The translations under genes and the position numbers were made by a program. Below are positions 57,623 through 64,000 of a stretch of DNA of 64,000 nt, one piece after another. The notes beneath the pieces were generated by a model, which was not told the DNA's origin, ran no database searches, and saw nothing but the letters and a program-made list of their open reading frames with translations. The stretch covers positions 1,426,001 to 1,490,000 of the forward strand of contig NC_007498.2 in assembly GCF_000012885.1 (NCBI RefSeq), written 5' to 3'. Each line of letters starts with the position of its first letter. The first letter of the stretch is position 1. The DNA comes from Syntrophotalea carbinolica DSM 2380. GTDB lineage: Bacteria > Desulfobacterota > Desulfuromonadia > Desulfuromonadales > Syntrophotaleaceae.

Positions 57623-58654
57623 TTGAAACCGATCGATCCTCAAAACATTCGGCGTATCATGGTGCGATCGACCAACTGGGTTGGCGATGCCGTCATGACC
57701 ACGCCGGCTATGGCCGATCTTAGGAAGGCCTTTCCCGACGCTGAAATCGTCGTTGTTGCCAATCCTCTGGTGGCTCAACTGTTTACCTGGCACCCCTATT
57801 GCGATCGTGTGCTGGTTTACGACAAAAAAGGGCCTCACAAAGGGTTTGCCGGATTGTGGAAATTCGCACGGCAACTCAGTAGGGAAAACTTCGATATGGC
57901 CGTTTTGCTGCAAAACGCCATCGAAGCGGCCATTATGGCTGCTCTGGCCGGCATACCGCGACGGGTCGGATACCGCACCGATGCGCGGCGTTTACTTTTA
58001 ACCCACGGTGTCGCCGTGGGGGCCGAGCAGAAACGTTTGCATCATACAGAATATTACCGTCATATGCTTGGCCATATCTGCCCGGGGCAGGGTGACGGTC
58101 GCCTGCGTCTTGCGTGCAGCGAGGCGGAGCAGTCCTGGGTAAGGGAGACTCTCGGGGACGATCGTTGGGTAGCCATTAATCCCGGTGCCGCTTATGGCTC
58201 CGCCAAACGTTGGTTGCCCGAGCGGTTCGCCGCGGTTGCCGATGGTCTTGTCGAGGAATTCGGTTTGCGGGTGGTGTTGACCGGCGGACCCGGCGAGAAG
58301 GAAATCGGCCGGGATATCGCGCAGGCCATGCGTGCCCCGGCACTGAATCTGATTGGCGAAACATCCGTGCGGCAGTTGATGGCGGTACTGGAGGCCTGTC
58401 GGCTGATGATTACCAACGATTCGGGGCCTATGCACGTAGCGGCTGCTTTCGATGTGCCCATCGTGGCGGTGTTCGGCCCGACCGATCATACCACCACTTC
58501 ACCCTGGACTCAGGATTGTCGCATCGTACGTAAATCCATCGATTGCGCCCCCTGTCTGCTCCGGCAGTGTCCGACCGATCATCGTTGTATGCGGGCCATT
58601 TCGCCCGAAGATGTACTGACCGCTGCACGTCAGCTCCTGGGAGATGTCTCATGA
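57623..58654 (+). CDS. waaF: Lipopolysaccharide heptosyltransferase II
   Basis: This GT9 enzyme adds the second heptose of the inner core. TTG 57623 follows AAAGGAG; the product has 343 residues. It shows IMVRSTNWVGDAVMTTPAM, the GYRTDAR segment, INPGAAYGSAKRWLPERFA, NDSGPMHVAAAFDVPIVAVFGPTDHTTTSPW, and the WaaF-type end CLLRQCPTDHRCM. It overlaps the next gene by 4 bases (ATGA). Confidence 0.94.
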   Translation: MKPIDPQNIRRIMVRSTNWVGDAVMTTPAMADLRKAFPDAEIVVVANPLVAQLFTWHPYCDRVLVYDKKGPHKGFAGLWKFARQLSRENFDMAVLLQNAIEAAIMAALAGIPRRVGYRTDARRLLLTHGVAVGAEQKRLHHTEYYRHMLGHICPGQGDGRLRLACSEAEQSWVRETLGDDRWVAINPGAAYGSAKRWLPERFAAVADGLVEEFGLRVVLTGGPGEKEIGRDIAQAMRAPALNLIGETSVRQLMAVLEACRLMITNDSGPMHVAAAFDVPIVAVFGPTDHTTTSPWTQDCRIVRKSIDCAPCLLRQCPTDHRCMRAISPEDVLTAARQLLGDVS

Positions 58655-59703
58655 GAGTGCTGATTGTTAAAATCAGTGCCCTGGGCGATGTGGTGCATGC
58701 GTTACCGGTGCTCGCCTATCTCAAGGAGGCCCATCCGGAGATCAAGATCGACTGGTTGGTCGAAGAAGGCTTCGCACCGCTGATCGAAGGCCACCCGATG
58801 TTGCGGCGGGTTTACCGTCTTGGACTCAAGCGCTGGCGGCGCGAGGGCTGGAGATCCGTTCTCGCAGGCGTTAAGTCCACAGTGCACGAGTTGCGTAACG
58901 AGCGTTACGATATGGTTCTCGATTTGCAGGGGAACTGTAAAAGTGGTCTCTTTACTTTGCTATGCGGTGCTCCCCGGCGGTACGGATTTTCTTTCAGTGG
59001 CGTGCGGGAATGGCCGAACCTGCTTGCGACCAATCGCAGGGTTGTATTGACTGCCGCCGACCATCATATCAGTGATCGTTCCCTGGCGGTGGCACGCGAG
59101 GCGTTTCCTGTCGGCAATGCGCGTTCCGCGGCGGGGCCTTTGCACGTGACACCTCAGGCACGTACAGCGGTGGAGAAGCAGCTCGGTTCATTTAATATGA
59201 ATGGCCCATCGCTGGTTGTCCTGCAATACGGAACGACCTGGGAAACCAAACTCTGGCCCCTTGATTCCTGGCAGCGATTGGCTCGCACGCTCTGTACGGA
59301 AGATAACCTGCGACCGGTATTGATATGGGGCAACGAGGCCGAACGTGACGCCGCCGAGGCCATTTACCGGGCTACCGATGGACAGGCCGTGATCTGGCCG
59401 CGCGGCACTTTACAGGAACTTGCCGCGCTCCTGGAGAGAGCCGATTTAGTGATCGGAGGCGATACCGGTCCGATTCATATTGCTGCCGCCCTCGACACTC
59501 CTACCGTGTCGATTTTCAGAGTGACGGACGGATCCCGAAACGGGCCGCGTGGGCCACTTCACATACGTTTGCAGAGTCCCCTGGAATGTTCGCCTTGTCT
59601 TCAGAAATCATGTCCAAGGGATGCGGAATGCGGACATAGCATTACCGTTAACCAGGTGCTGGACGCCACACGCAAACAACTCAAAAGACAGGGCCAACAA
59701 TGA
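58651..59703 (+). CDS. waaC: Lipopolysaccharide heptosyltransferase I-like (GT9)
   Basis: From ATG 58651 the product has 350 residues. It shows the WaaC-type start LIVKISALGDVVHALPVLAYLKE, DWLVEEGFAPLIEGHP, DLQGNCKSGLFTLL, LQYGTTWETKLWPLDSW, and GGDTGPIHIAAALDTPTVSIF. The C-terminus contains CSPCLQKSCPRDAEC, similar to WaaF-type Cys-rich ends. WaaC adds the first heptose to Kdo. The exact heptose acceptor is inferred. It overlaps the following kinase gene by 4 bases. Confidence 0.9.
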   Translation: MRVLIVKISALGDVVHALPVLAYLKEAHPEIKIDWLVEEGFAPLIEGHPMLRRVYRLGLKRWRREGWRSVLAGVKSTVHELRNERYDMVLDLQGNCKSGLFTLLCGAPRRYGFSFSGVREWPNLLATNRRVVLTAADHHISDRSLAVAREAFPVGNARSAAGPLHVTPQARTAVEKQLGSFNMNGPSLVVLQYGTTWETKLWPLDSWQRLARTLCTEDNLRPVLIWGNEAERDAAEAIYRATDGQAVIWPRGTLQELAALLERADLVIGGDTGPIHIAAALDTPTVSIFRVTDGSRNGPRGPLHIRLQSPLECSPCLQKSCPRDAECGHSITVNQVLDATRKQLKRQGQQ

Positions 59704-60533
59704 TTTATGGCACAGGCAGTATGACTGTCACCGAGGAAGCCCGATCCGCGCTCGAGGCCGCCGGTCTTACCCGTTTTAATGATTTTATGGGATATGCGGG
59801 AGGTACGCATATCTGCCATAAGCGGGGTCGCTCCACTGTGCGTTTGCAGATCGGCGAGCGGGCTTTTTTTCTCAAGCGTAACCGGTTTCACTGGGTTGAA
59901 TTTTTAAAGGGGATCTCGCGTCTGCGTCTGCCGGTTCGCGGGGCGCTTCGCGAGTGGCGCAATATTGCCAAGGTGCGTGCTGTCGGCGTGCCGACGGTGA
60001 TGGCTGTTGCGTTTGGTGAACGCCCCCTACTGGGGATTGAAACCTGTTCTTTCAGCATGACCGAAGAGTTGTATGATTGCCTTCCGCTGGATCAGGTGCT
60101 GAACACAGGATTTTCCGGGGCTTTATCCCGGGAGCAGCGCCAACGCAAGCGCGGTTTCATTCGTCAATTGGGGGAGCTTGCTCGCCGTTTGCATGAGAAT
60201 GGCCTCTATCATCAGGATTTTTATCTGAGCCATTTCTTCCTTGGTCCCGACGATGTACTGCATCTTATCGATCTGCAGCGGGTCTTGTCCAATCCTTTGC
60301 GTGCCGGTCATTTTCGTATCAAGGATCTGGCTCAACTTAACTATGCCGCCGGTCGCGTGAGCTGTCTGAGCCGAACCGATCGGTTGCGGTTTCTGTCGGC
60401 TTATTTCGGTCATTCCCACCTGACTGTTCCGGAAAGAAAGCTGGTGAAGGCTGTTCTGGCCAAGACGGCCCGTATTGCCCGACACGATATCAAGTTGCTG
60501 GCGCGTCGCCGTCGCCGCGGAGAATTACCTTAA
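59700..60533 (+). CDS. WaaP/Kdo-kinase family lipopolysaccharide kinase
   Basis: This is a protein-kinase-like LPS core kinase of 277 residues. The beta-3 lysine is seen in FFLKRNRFHW. The helix LARRLHENGLYHQDFYLSHFF carries the catalytic HxD-type motif (HQDF), and HLIDLQRV gives the metal-binding Asp (DFG-equivalent). The C-terminal end is basic. It likely phosphorylates core heptose or Kdo; which position is unknown. It overlaps waaC, so it belongs to the core operon. Confidence 0.87.
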   Translation: MIYGTGSMTVTEEARSALEAAGLTRFNDFMGYAGGTHICHKRGRSTVRLQIGERAFFLKRNRFHWVEFLKGISRLRLPVRGALREWRNIAKVRAVGVPTVMAVAFGERPLLGIETCSFSMTEELYDCLPLDQVLNTGFSGALSREQRQRKRGFIRQLGELARRLHENGLYHQDFYLSHFFLGPDDVLHLIDLQRVLSNPLRAGHFRIKDLAQLNYAAGRVSCLSRTDRLRFLSAYFGHSHLTVPERKLVKAVLAKTARIARHDIKLLARRRRRGELP

Positions 60534-60564
60534 ATCCTGAACGATGCATAGCATTGGGGGGTGC

Positions 60565-61830
60565 ATGACTCGGAAAATCAGCGTTATATGCGCACCTGCG
60601 CCCAAACCCAATCCCGGCATGGCCAGTGTCGATCTCGCTTTCCATGCATTAAGCCGTCGGCATGGGTTTGCCGATCAGGTAACCTTTTATCAGCTTTACA
60701 CCGCCGATGAGTTGCATGCACAAGCTGGAGATGAGCTGCAAAAGGAAGTGCGTATCCGGCAGAGCCTGCCGTTTGCCTACCAGAATTTTCGCAATCGTCT
60801 GGAAGATGTTTTCTCCAGTGACCGGATCGTGTTTTGGGGCGACTTTCTGCATAGTGCGGATTATCATGTGGCGGCTGCGCGACGCCTGGTAAAAATCGGC
60901 CTGGTCGATCATGCCGATGATGCTCTTGCGTTGGTAAGGGATCACTATTTTCTACGCCACGCGCCCGCAGAGGTCTGGTCGAAGGTCCTGGTTTTCGGCG
61001 GTAACTTGCTCCATAATCGCTCAGCGCATTATAGCGCCGACGATTACGGACCAGAGGCGCAACGATTTTTTCGGCGTGCCGAACAGATCAAGATGCGGGA
61101 TATTTATTCGGCGGCCCGGGTGTCCGAACTGCGCAACGACTATTCTGCGAGTTATCTGGGGTGCGATTGTTCCCTGGTGTTATTGCCAGAGGATTTAAAA
61201 GAGCTGGCCTGCAGCGATCGGCAGAATCCTATTGTTCCCGACACCGGCCGTGTCGGTGTTTTTTTCGGGCGCAATAAATGCCATCCCGGAATCATGGCAC
61301 GTTTTGCGCGCGATCTGTGTCGCAGGTTGGGTAAGCGCGGACAATGGTTGCCGTGGGGCCTGACCAAGGGTTTCGGGCGCATGCGCGACAAGGTTCGTTT
61401 CCGGTTTCCCGGTTTGGAGATTGTGAACCATCCGACGCCGCCGACTCCCGGCGATCTGTACCGGATGCTTGGCAGTTATGAACTGGTGATCTCCGATACC
61501 TATCATGTATGTGTGAATGCCTGGCGTCTGGGGGTTCCCGCGGTGTGCATCGGTCAGGCGGTAGTTTCGGAACAGGACAATATCAACAGCGGCCACGTGT
61601 TCGCCTGGAGGGATAAACGGCAGGTATTCTACGGCATGTACGATGCTCTGGACTATTACGTGTACGCGGAAGAGATCGGGGATCGCCGCTTGCGTGGCCG
61701 AAGGCTCGATCAATTAACCGAATTGCTGCAAACGCCCGTATCCACGCAGGCCGTGCATGCACGCCTGTTGTCAAGTGCCCGCGCCATGGAACAATCGGCG
61801 ATTCGGGCGATTTTGCCTTCACTTCGCTGA
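60565..61830 (+). CDS. Polysaccharide pyruvyltransferase-like protein
   Basis: The 421-residue protein (ATG 60565, GGGGGG upstream; ATG 60544 is an alternative) shows a GT-B-like layout. An N-terminal domain with FWGDFLHSADYH leads to a C-terminal segment ELVISDTYHVCVNAWRLGVPAVCIG, which resembles the conserved end of PF04230 pyruvyltransferases. It also keeps a GVFFGRNKCHPG start of the second domain. It may add a pyruvyl or another acidic group to a core sugar. The family call is by pattern only; a divergent glycosyltransferase is possible. Confidence 0.6.
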   Translation: MTRKISVICAPAPKPNPGMASVDLAFHALSRRHGFADQVTFYQLYTADELHAQAGDELQKEVRIRQSLPFAYQNFRNRLEDVFSSDRIVFWGDFLHSADYHVAAARRLVKIGLVDHADDALALVRDHYFLRHAPAEVWSKVLVFGGNLLHNRSAHYSADDYGPEAQRFFRRAEQIKMRDIYSAARVSELRNDYSASYLGCDCSLVLLPEDLKELACSDRQNPIVPDTGRVGVFFGRNKCHPGIMARFARDLCRRLGKRGQWLPWGLTKGFGRMRDKVRFRFPGLEIVNHPTPPTPGDLYRMLGSYELVISDTYHVCVNAWRLGVPAVCIGQAVVSEQDNINSGHVFAWRDKRQVFYGMYDALDYYVYAEEIGDRRLRGRRLDQLTELLQTPVSTQAVHARLLSSARAMEQSAIRAILPSLR

Positions 61831-61874
61831 CTCTTCGATAATTCAGATTGTTCAACCGGCAAGGGATACTTGCA

Positions 61875-62777
61875 ATGCAATGGTCTATTATCATTCCCAC
61901 CTACAATTACGGTCGTTATATCGAGCGATGTCTGCTTTCCATTCTCGATCAGTCCGGCGAGGATTACGAAATCGTGGTTGTCGACGACGGTTCCACGGAC
62001 GATACCCGCGACGTTATCAAGACCTTTATGCAAAAACACAAGCTACCCGTCGGTCGCCTGCGCCTTTTGCATCAATCCAATCAAGGCCCCGCGGCTGCGC
62101 GAAATCATGGTATTGCCAAGGCCAGGGGGGATTTCATCTGGTTCCTTGATTCCGATGACCGCCTGGCCCCCAATGCCCTTGAGCATCTGCGTCTGGCTGT
62201 GGCTCAGCATCCTGACGGCGAGATGTTTTTCGGCGGTTACCGCTCGGTCGCGCAGTCCGGGGTGTCAACGGATAAACTTCCGGGAAATTTGAGTTCCGAC
62301 CGGACGGAAAATTTTCGGCGGTTTCTGCGGAAAGATCTCAAAAGTCTCACCACCGGAGCCGTGGTCATTCGCAAGGCGGCTCTGGGGGAGCTTCGGTTTC
62401 CCGAAGGTATTCATGTCAACGAGGATGTGGTCTTTTTCGGACAGATGATCGCTCGTTGCGATACGTTGGCGATTCCCCAGGTGCTGGTCGAAAAGATACG
62501 TCATCCCGCCAGCTTGCGGGGAAATCTCGATCGTATCGAGGAAACCGGTCTACGTTCCGTCGATGCGCTGTTTGATCCCGCCCGGCTGACCCCCGAGCAA
62601 ATGAAGCTGCGCTCCATGTATCGAGCCAACCGCTGCTTACGCCTGTTTCGTGCACACTACCTGGCTGGCAATCATGCCCGGGCCCGAGCCTATTATGCGC
62701 AGGCACTGCAAACCTCCCCCCGCTGTTTGTTCAAGGGCTCGTATCTGTTGAAGTTTTTGCTGTGCCTGGGCAAATAA
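61875..62777 (+). CDS. Family 2 glycosyltransferase
   Basis: This is a soluble GT-A enzyme of 300 residues (ATG 61875, AAGGGA upstream). The nucleotide-sugar fold shows IIIPTYNYGRYIERCLLSILDQS, VVVDDGSTDDT, NQGPAAARNHGIAKARGDFIWFLDSDD (DxD motif) and a conserved HVNEDVVFFG acceptor segment. It probably extends the outer core or O-chain. The acceptor and donor cannot be read from sequence. Confidence 0.92.
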   Translation: MQWSIIIPTYNYGRYIERCLLSILDQSGEDYEIVVVDDGSTDDTRDVIKTFMQKHKLPVGRLRLLHQSNQGPAAARNHGIAKARGDFIWFLDSDDRLAPNALEHLRLAVAQHPDGEMFFGGYRSVAQSGVSTDKLPGNLSSDRTENFRRFLRKDLKSLTTGAVVIRKAALGELRFPEGIHVNEDVVFFGQMIARCDTLAIPQVLVEKIRHPASLRGNLDRIEETGLRSVDALFDPARLTPEQMKLRSMYRANRCLRLFRAHYLAGNHARARAYYAQALQTSPRCLFKGSYLLKFLLCLGK

Positions 62778-62803
62778 AAGACACCATAACGATAAAATCA
62801 CGG

Positions 62804-62832
62804 TTGTCAGAACGATTTTTTGCCCCTATGAT
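62804..62832 (+). promoter_or_regulatory. Strong-looking sigma-70 promoter before the last gene
   Basis: TTGTCA and TATGAT are separated by exactly 17 bases. It would start a leader of about 210 bases before the kinase-like gene, making this gene separately transcribed from the core operon. A weak hairpin with a T-run (62794-62822) overlaps the -35 region and may end the upstream transcript. Confidence 0.6.
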
Positions 62833-63052
62833 AGCTTGTTTTTCCCGTACTGTTCGTGATGCGTTCATTTGCGGATGCTTTTTATTCGATCTTCAGTTGC
62901 GCTTGAACCCCGTTGTCGGATAAAAGCTGGTGGCGTGTGGCGCCTGATTTAGCACGGGGTGAGTGGTATTCGCTGACCTTATGGCGGCAAGCTGCGATCG
63001 ATACCTCAAGTACATGAGCGGGATGCAAAGGTTGAGAGGAAAATCAGGTTCG

Positions 63053-64000
63053 ATGTTATGTGCCAAAACACCACCAACAACTGTCTGGCTTTATCGATCC
63101 AGCCGTTCGGTCGCTGCCGATACCTGCGAGGTGGTATCTGTTGTTTCCCCGAGGGGACACCTGTTCCACCGAGTCGCGCGTCGCACACAGCGGTTTCTGC
63201 GACACCTTGAAAACTGCGGGTGTCCGGCCTGGGGTGTCGTGGGTGTCGGGGTGCAGAGTGCCGGGTGGTTATCCGAGCGCATTGTTTTTCAGACACGGTC
63301 TGTCGGCAAGGCACTCCCCCTGGAGGCCTATTGGAATGGTGCATACGGTGATTTGACTGCTGCCGATAAGCGCCGGTTTGTTCGGGTTCTGGGGCGCTTT
63401 CTGCATCGTCTGCACGATGCCGGCATTGCTTTTGATCACCGTCTCTGGGGTGAGTTGCTGGTTGATGCGCAAAGATCGGAGATCTCCTTTGGGCTTTATG
63501 GTCATCCGCCGGGCCGTTGGGGAAAAGCGTTATCCGATAGACAACGTATGGTTTCCCTGGCCTCTTTGTATGCTTCGGTTTTTGGTCGTGCCAGCCGATC
63601 CGAGAGGTGGCGACTCATTACGGCTTATCTCGGTCCTCAAGTCAGCCGGGCGCTGCGACGCAGATGGTTAAAAGGGCTGCAGGCCCGCTGTCTCAGGCAG
63701 GCCAGGCGTTTATGGTCCCGGCAGGCTCGGCGCTGTTTTGGCATCAATGACGATTTTGTCAGAGAAAACCGTCAGGGCTACGATGTTTATCGCCAGCGCG
63801 GCGCCGAAGCTGAGGCCGCTTTACGCGCTTTGCTGCCGGATCCCGATCAGGCTTTCGAAAATGCCGTGATCTATAAACCGGGCAGTCGTACGCATGCCGG
63901 GCATGTTGTGCTGGGTGGGCGTTCTTATTTTTTAAAACGCTACAATCGTCGCGGTCTGTTTTACAGTTTGGTCCGTTTCGGTCGTTTTTCCCGCGCCCGC
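63053..64000 (+). CDS. Kinase-like protein with two units, 3' end cut by window (316 codons seen)
   Basis: The frame has no stop to the right edge, so it is easy to miss. ATG 63053 is tentative (AGAGGA about 13 bases upstream); ATG 62981, 63014 and 63023 are in frame too. Residues about 100-200 resemble the C-lobe of WaaP-like kinases (VLGRFLHRLHDAGIAFDH), but the HQD-type catalytic motif and the later LIDLQR Asp are absent. From about 270 a second unit starts with YKPGSRTHAGHVVLGGRSYFLKRYNRRG, matching the N-lobe with its beta-3 Lys of the 59.7 kb kinase. The product may pair a degenerate kinase with an active one. Confidence 0.75.
   Translation, partial: MLCAKTPPTTVWLYRSSRSVAADTCEVVSVVSPRGHLFHRVARRTQRFLRHLENCGCPAWGVVGVGVQSAGWLSERIVFQTRSVGKALPLEAYWNGAYGDLTAADKRRFVRVLGRFLHRLHDAGIAFDHRLWGELLVDAQRSEISFGLYGHPPGRWGKALSDRQRMVSLASLYASVFGRASRSERWRLITAYLGPQVSRALRRRWLKGLQARCLRQARRLWSRQARRCFGINDDFVRENRQGYDVYRQRGAEAEAALRALLPDPDQAFENAVIYKPGSRTHAGHVVLGGRSYFLKRYNRRGLFYSLVRFGRFSRAR

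Follow-up and report, generated by a model that had tools for sequence, protein, structure and literature searches.

What role is left to the first half of a protein that resembles two kinases in a row, once that half has lost the residues of a working kinase? The question arises at the right edge of the window, the whole stretch of 64,000 nucleotides of Syntrophotalea carbinolica DSM 2380 analyzed here (bases 1426001–1490000 of a single-contig genome of 3,665,893 bases). The original prediction placed there a frame open to the window end, encoding two WaaP-like kinase units in tandem, the first of them degenerate. Both parts of this proposal were borne out, the frame by the genome sequence and the architecture by sequence profiles, a fold model and the relatives of the gene. 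We favor, with a probability of about 0.58, a two-unit protein of the lipopolysaccharide (LPS) core in which unit 2 would be the working kinase and unit 1 a former WaaP-type kinase that now serves unit 2 non-catalytically.

The frame is open on the forward strand from 62963 to 64000, and the surrounding genome sequence puts its end at 64453. Translation from the GTG at 62963 would give 496 amino acids, and from the ATG at 63053 would give 466. The ATG is backed by a relative in genome G117, 58% identical over its full length, whose own ATG likewise gives 466 amino acids; the gene is thus described here as 63053–64000, continuing to 64453 past the window edge. The five other frames of 63053–64453 contain 8 to 20 stops each. 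A sequencing frameshift or a wrongly joined frame, which would agree with the lack of a Pfam Kdo match for unit 1 itself, is an extremely improbable origin for this gene: it is in effect refuted by the G117 relative, which has the same two-unit architecture, length and start at 58% identity, and coding-type constraint on unit 1 (see below) also speaks against it. Upstream, a sigma-70-like site (TTGTCA, spacing of 17, TATGAT) was seen at 62804–62832, within the 275-base gap ahead of the tandem gene, and 62700–63200 contains two such sites on both strands, compared with 0.3 in shuffles. A structured RNA leader was considered and dropped, as an Rfam search of 62700–63200 at gathering scores gave no match. 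ATG, GTG or TTG codons within residues 150–330 occur in frame at residues 166 and 172 in unit 1 and at 260, 272, 286 and 306 in unit 2. That one of these candidate codons might serve to produce unit 2 separately was considered and set aside.

Unit 2 comprises residues 236–466 (63758–64000, continuing to 64450) and is assigned to the Kdo/WaaP kinase family by PF06293 and by the model of the G117 relative. The whole protein scored 60.2 bits against PF06293, above the gathering cut-off of 21.3, with a single matching stretch that lies within unit 2. A second N-lobe with the FLKR lysine had been expected near 63860; the lysine is indeed present (residue 295, 63935–63937), but the unit begins earlier, at about 63758. 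Extension of the sequence past 64000, which had been proposed as a check, revealed no early stop and a full C-lobe with HGDLKWDN and DFDG. All active-kinase motifs (lysine, HxD, Asn, Asp) are present in unit 2 and invariant across nine aligned sequences. In the model of the G117 relative (pLDDT 87, pTM 0.79), residues 237–465 matched PRPK (Z 19.4) and WaaP (Z 18.9). Unit 2 carries the family motifs of KdkA-type Kdo kinases and matches over most of its length, but its 54.0 bits against the KdkA equivalog NF002475 fall far below the required 142, so that its substrate cannot be named.

Unit 1 (residues 1–235; 63053–63757) combines a reduced N-lobe with a full C-lobe. Alignment with intact tandems and column tables showed that the catalytic loop, HxDLHxGN in those tandems, has decayed to FDHRLWGE (63431–63454), in which the catalytic Asp is replaced by His129 (codon 63437–63439) and the Asn by Glu134. 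In the same alignment the metal-Asp segment, otherwise LLDxD, has decayed to LYGHP (63494–63508), with Gly150 (codon 63500–63502) at the position of the metal Asp, and according to the column table the ATP lysine has no counterpart. The first half had been described beforehand as a kinase C-lobe without the catalytic HxD and the metal Asp, and these segments, together with a WaaP-like fold, agree with that description. Since neither the lysine that would bind ATP nor the catalytic and metal-binding Asp residues are left, unit 1 is, judged by its sequence, a putative pseudokinase.

Profiles, sequence searches and a fold model indicate that unit 1 is a genuine WaaP relative and not a chance resemblance. 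The NCBIfam RfaP model found unit 1 at 1.8e-5 over profile positions 75–264; a profile for which five first units, all intact, were the sole input gave it 79.3 bits; WaaP was reached in the PDB by sequence once the unit 1 alignment was used as the query; and AlphaFold2, applied to the 245 residues that make up the first half of the window gene's product, gave a model (pLDDT 82, pTM 0.77) with WaaP as its best PDB match. This match is the heptose I kinase WaaP (RfaP) of Pseudomonas aeruginosa (6DFL), found with a Foldseek E of 4.5e-8, a Z of 12.7 and an rmsd of 4.9 over 196 residues, and the likeness extends to the fold and to the C-lobe with its helical tail. WaaP K51, D163, H168 and D188 are without counterparts in unit 1. 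Other searches with unit 1 or the whole protein did not reach this assignment: unit 1 scored 23.8 bits against the RfaP/WaaP heptose I kinase equivalog NF011703, which requires 170, residues 1–269 alone gave no Kdo match (PF06293) at E 1, and a PDB sequence search with the whole protein returned, among its best 60 matches, weak matches to eukaryotic kinases alone. In the unit 1 model, the C-lobe helices are complete, and the glycine-loop/ATP-lysine sheet is down to two strands that adjoin low-confidence stretches. Structure prediction, the second check proposed, thus placed a kinase fold in the first half, and none of the three outcomes named beforehand as counting against the prediction (an early stop, no C-lobe, no first-half kinase fold) occurred.

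It is very unlikely that unit 1 retains an unusual activity or nucleotide binding in spite of its lost motifs. The DHRL common to the window gene and the G117 relative at the former catalytic loop would suit such an activity, as would the finding, reported in the available part of the source (PMC3281104), that ErbB3 and others predicted to be pseudokinases have residual activity. Against this, none of the four residues (lysine, catalytic Asp, Asn, metal Asp) is retained, the glycine-loop/lysine sheet is mostly gone, and each of the substitutions K51A, D163A and D188N, made singly in the WaaP of P. aeruginosa, resulted in no growth (PMC6147952).

The neighbors of the gene support the setting originally suggested, LPS core phosphorylation, in that they point to LPS core synthesis; the enzymatic role of either unit is a prediction. 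Upstream on the forward strand lie two heptosyltransferases of glycosyltransferase family 9 (57623–59703; PF01075, 169 and 147 bits) and a separate RfaP-like kinase of the same cluster (59700–60533; NCBIfam RfaP 143.9 bits, below the cut-off of 170, and Pfam Kdo 71.2 bits), followed, between the two kinase genes, by a polysaccharide pyruvyl transferase-like gene and a family 2 glycosyltransferase (60544–62777; PF04230 34 bits, PF00535 128 bits). On the other side are the next kinase gene (64450–65211, Y below), a SIS-domain gene, glycosyltransferases, LAB_N, a PMT_2 protein and a full RfaP (321 bits). The genome has four Pfam Kdo places at E 0.001, all inside 10.7 kb. Most of the stretches from relatives that were compared contain parts of this neighborhood; G121 is an exception. 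Farther past the window, the ORF at 72712–73878 of the same genome (L002:14712–15878) looks by eye like a fusion of a NeuA-type cytidylyltransferase and a KdsC-like phosphatase, and it is preceded by a NeuB-like gene, also recognized by eye.

How unusual such a pair is was assessed among relatives. A search of the window's order gave a match at 1e-10 in 35 of 136 genomes. The tandem set consisted of 77 non-duplicate ORFs from the fetched loci of the best matches (at most 30 per search), 23 of them from the order search, 27 from the class search and 1, 1, 5 and 20 from the others. Contained copies were removed, and an ORF then qualified with a best unit 2 match of 60 bits or more whose start lay no earlier than residue 180; L074 and L139, with N-terminal best matches, and L113 and L116, with weak ones, fall outside the set. 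Unit 2 keeps the lysine, His, Asp, Asn and Asp in 77/77, a figure that is partly built in by the choice of ORFs on their unit 2 match. Unit 1 keeps its lysine, Asp, Asn and Asp in 69/77 and has lost all four in 6/77: the window gene, the G117 gene, two neighboring genes in G113, and one gene each in G012 and G106, that is, six genes from five genomes, all of the window's order. The remaining two were counted as neither intact nor wholly lost: L124, with unit 1 catalytic Asp changed to Glu, Asn to His and metal Asp to Gly and the lysine kept, and L125, with an unclear unit 1 lysine column and Asn changed to His. Across 17 genomes, Pfam Kdo matched twice in 6/6 intact tandems and once in 6/6 dead-unit ORFs. 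The pseudokinase-kinase pair had been called unusual, and this stands for one part only: tandem LPS kinases are common in these sequence sets, and what is unusual is the dead first unit, which six genes have, all from a single order.

Some tandems and their relatives have further architectures. In G113 (L039:11797–14561), two pseudokinase-kinase genes, one of clade X and one of clade Y (see below), are adjacent and overlap, and their first units have decayed differently. Two Syntrophobacteraceae records (L051:4651–8337, L059:4645–8478) contain one-frame fusions of 1229–1278 residues, ordered as a glycosyltransferase-like part, two motif-intact kinase units and a heptosyltransferase-like end, the ends being assigned by eye. 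The 845-residue product of L053:5710–8244 (G007) joins an intact tandem to a glycosyltransferase that is a relative of the one encoded at 61848–62777 in the window.

In trees of unit 2, those genes of the window's order and of near relatives whose unit 1 is dead or missing fall into two neighboring paralogous clades. Clade X (10 rows, support 96/85) contains the window gene, and clade Y (10 rows, support 95/92) contains the next gene of the same genome, 64450–65211. Eleven intact tandems sit apart from X and Y together, across a branch with support of only 75/53. The narrower tree omitted rows below 150 bits and the long-branch L019_1453, which the wider tree put in X. Unit 1 has been lost outside X and Y too, since the wider tree has single-unit genes interspersed with distant intact tandems. 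The X and Y genes are chromosomal neighbors in the window genome, G117, G012, G106, G125, G076 and G113, an arrangement that an old tandem duplication would leave. Both genes are present in 5/5 genomes with a dead unit 1, and a separate Y gene is absent from 6/6 genomes with an intact tandem, in which strong Y matches lie only inside the tandem itself; G118 and G120 have weak Y matches near 1e-8, in other ORFs or in unit 1. Two cases argue against a strict link between the loss of unit 1 and the second copy Y: in G106, the dead unit 1 belongs to the Y gene and not to the X gene, and L057 and L061 have X genes without unit 1 and no Y in the sequence stretches compared. A single ancestral loss of unit 1 chemistry before the X/Y split is compatible with the trees, since X and Y fall on one side of the 75/53 branch. 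A topology with the four dead units of X as a single clade was not rejected (AU p 0.469).

The window gene and its G117 relative share 49% identity in unit 1 and 67% in unit 2, and dN/dS is about 0.31 and 0.12, respectively, with dS at 1.5–2 and thus near saturation. Bootstraps of the unit 1 value ranged from 0.19 to 0.46, and 0/199 usable replicates reached 1 or more; residues 1–60 look nearly free, with a dN/dS of 0.69 on 58 codons. The dN of unit 1 was 2.0 times that of unit 2 in this pair, compared with 1.04, 1.05, 1.10 and 1.25 in four intact pairs. For a second dead pair, the window gene and G113 X, the ratio was just 1.18 (0.691/0.586; 160 aligned unit 1 codons), and the twofold relaxation therefore rests on one pair. 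Unit 1 is under purifying constraint, which is relaxed in the closest pair (window–G117).

These values bear on whether unit 1 is a functionless relic in decay, whose catalysis became redundant and which then drifted and was trimmed, so that the leftover constraint is that of not misfolding and spoiling unit 2. This is possible, although we doubt it. The twofold dN of unit 1 in the closest pair agrees with it, and so does a graded series of decay: unit 1 has a near full C-lobe in the window genome and G117, is cut short to remnants in G113 X, G012 and G106, and is absent from other X/Y-clade genes (e.g., L015, L016, L017, L057 and L061). Less easily reconciled with a relic are the unit 1 dN/dS of about 0.3 (bootstrap 0.19–0.46), for part of which avoidance of misfolding could account, the absence of stops and frameshifts from two species whose unit 1 sequences have about half of their residues in common, and the confident fold models of the G117 relative and of the window's unit 1. 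The data would make a retained structural role more likely than pure drift. Because the WaaP C-lobe is kept and is under purifying selection, unit 1 is most likely a non-catalytic helper of unit 2; the relatives that manage with a shortened unit 1 or without one count against this.

The favored arrangement, a non-catalytic unit 1 serving a live unit 2, would place two kinase units in one protein for LPS-core synthesis. Judging from its family, unit 2 would phosphorylate an inner-core sugar at the expense of ATP. Unit 1 would formerly have been a WaaP-type kinase, as it apparently still is in the live-live tandems of relatives, and with its chemistry lost it would act as a folded platform that both steadies unit 2 and holds a partner or the lipid-linked substrate. 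The loss of unit 1 chemistry would accompany a second copy of a unit-2-type kinase next door (Y, 64450–65211). In P. aeruginosa, the C-lobe of WaaP binds acyl-ACP by seven basic residues and the enzyme is thereby stabilized (PMC6147952). By-eye reading of the alignment gave basic counterparts in unit 1 for K140, R141, R221 and R226 and none for R222 and R229, and R237 was not placeable. That the retained C-lobe of unit 1 could hold an acyl-ACP-like partner for unit 2 is a guess by analogy, as four of these positions are kept and two are not, and the kept ones may be structural. A more elaborate history, in which an ancestral live-live tandem was copied, the task of unit 1 passed to the second unit of the copy (Y), and the first copy's own unit 1 was turned into a dedicated pseudokinase for organizing or regulating core phosphorylation, perhaps docking acyl-ACP as the WaaP C-lobe does, seems unlikely to us. 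If true, it would mean a pseudokinase-kinase for carbohydrate and not protein phosphorylation, with live, dead and lost forms in one order.

Pseudokinases are best known from protein-kinase signaling. JAK/TYK2 have dead and live kinase units in one chain. The same is described for plant tandem kinases of the wheat Yr15 family, in the available part of the source. Both groups are eukaryotic protein kinases of signaling or immunity, whereas the gene described here belongs to an LPS sugar kinase family. Closer in setting is PA5006, a kinase gene in the P. aeruginosa operon with waaP, wapP and wapQ. Compared by description in the available parts of the sources, it is of similar size (fragment numbering up to residue 493) and has a similar place among LPS kinases (PMC8707732, PMC8005017). 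As the 27 tandem ORFs from the class search keep both catalytic sites, PA5006 may, by analogy, be a live-live tandem relative. In the available part of a 2025 review of bacterial serine-threonine pseudokinase families (PMC12599244), a search by term for lipopolysaccharide, Kdo, WaaP, tandem and LPS found none of them. Among titles and the beginnings of abstracts on WaaP/wapP/wapQ/PA5006, bacterial pseudokinases, tandem kinases and Pelobacter carbinolicus lipopolysaccharide, a set with thin coverage of subscription papers, no LPS-kinase pseudokinase was found described.

Taken on its sequence, the gene probably encodes a pseudokinase-kinase of LPS core synthesis in which unit 1 is structural. 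An LPS sugar kinase has thus apparently turned pseudokinase within a tandem, with live-live relatives surviving and with genes of the same order in which the unit is partly decayed or missing. Nature thus supplies a series in which the use of a kinase fold without its chemistry can be studied. The gene may also add a non-catalytic part to inner-core phosphorylation, which is relevant to the strength of the outer membrane.
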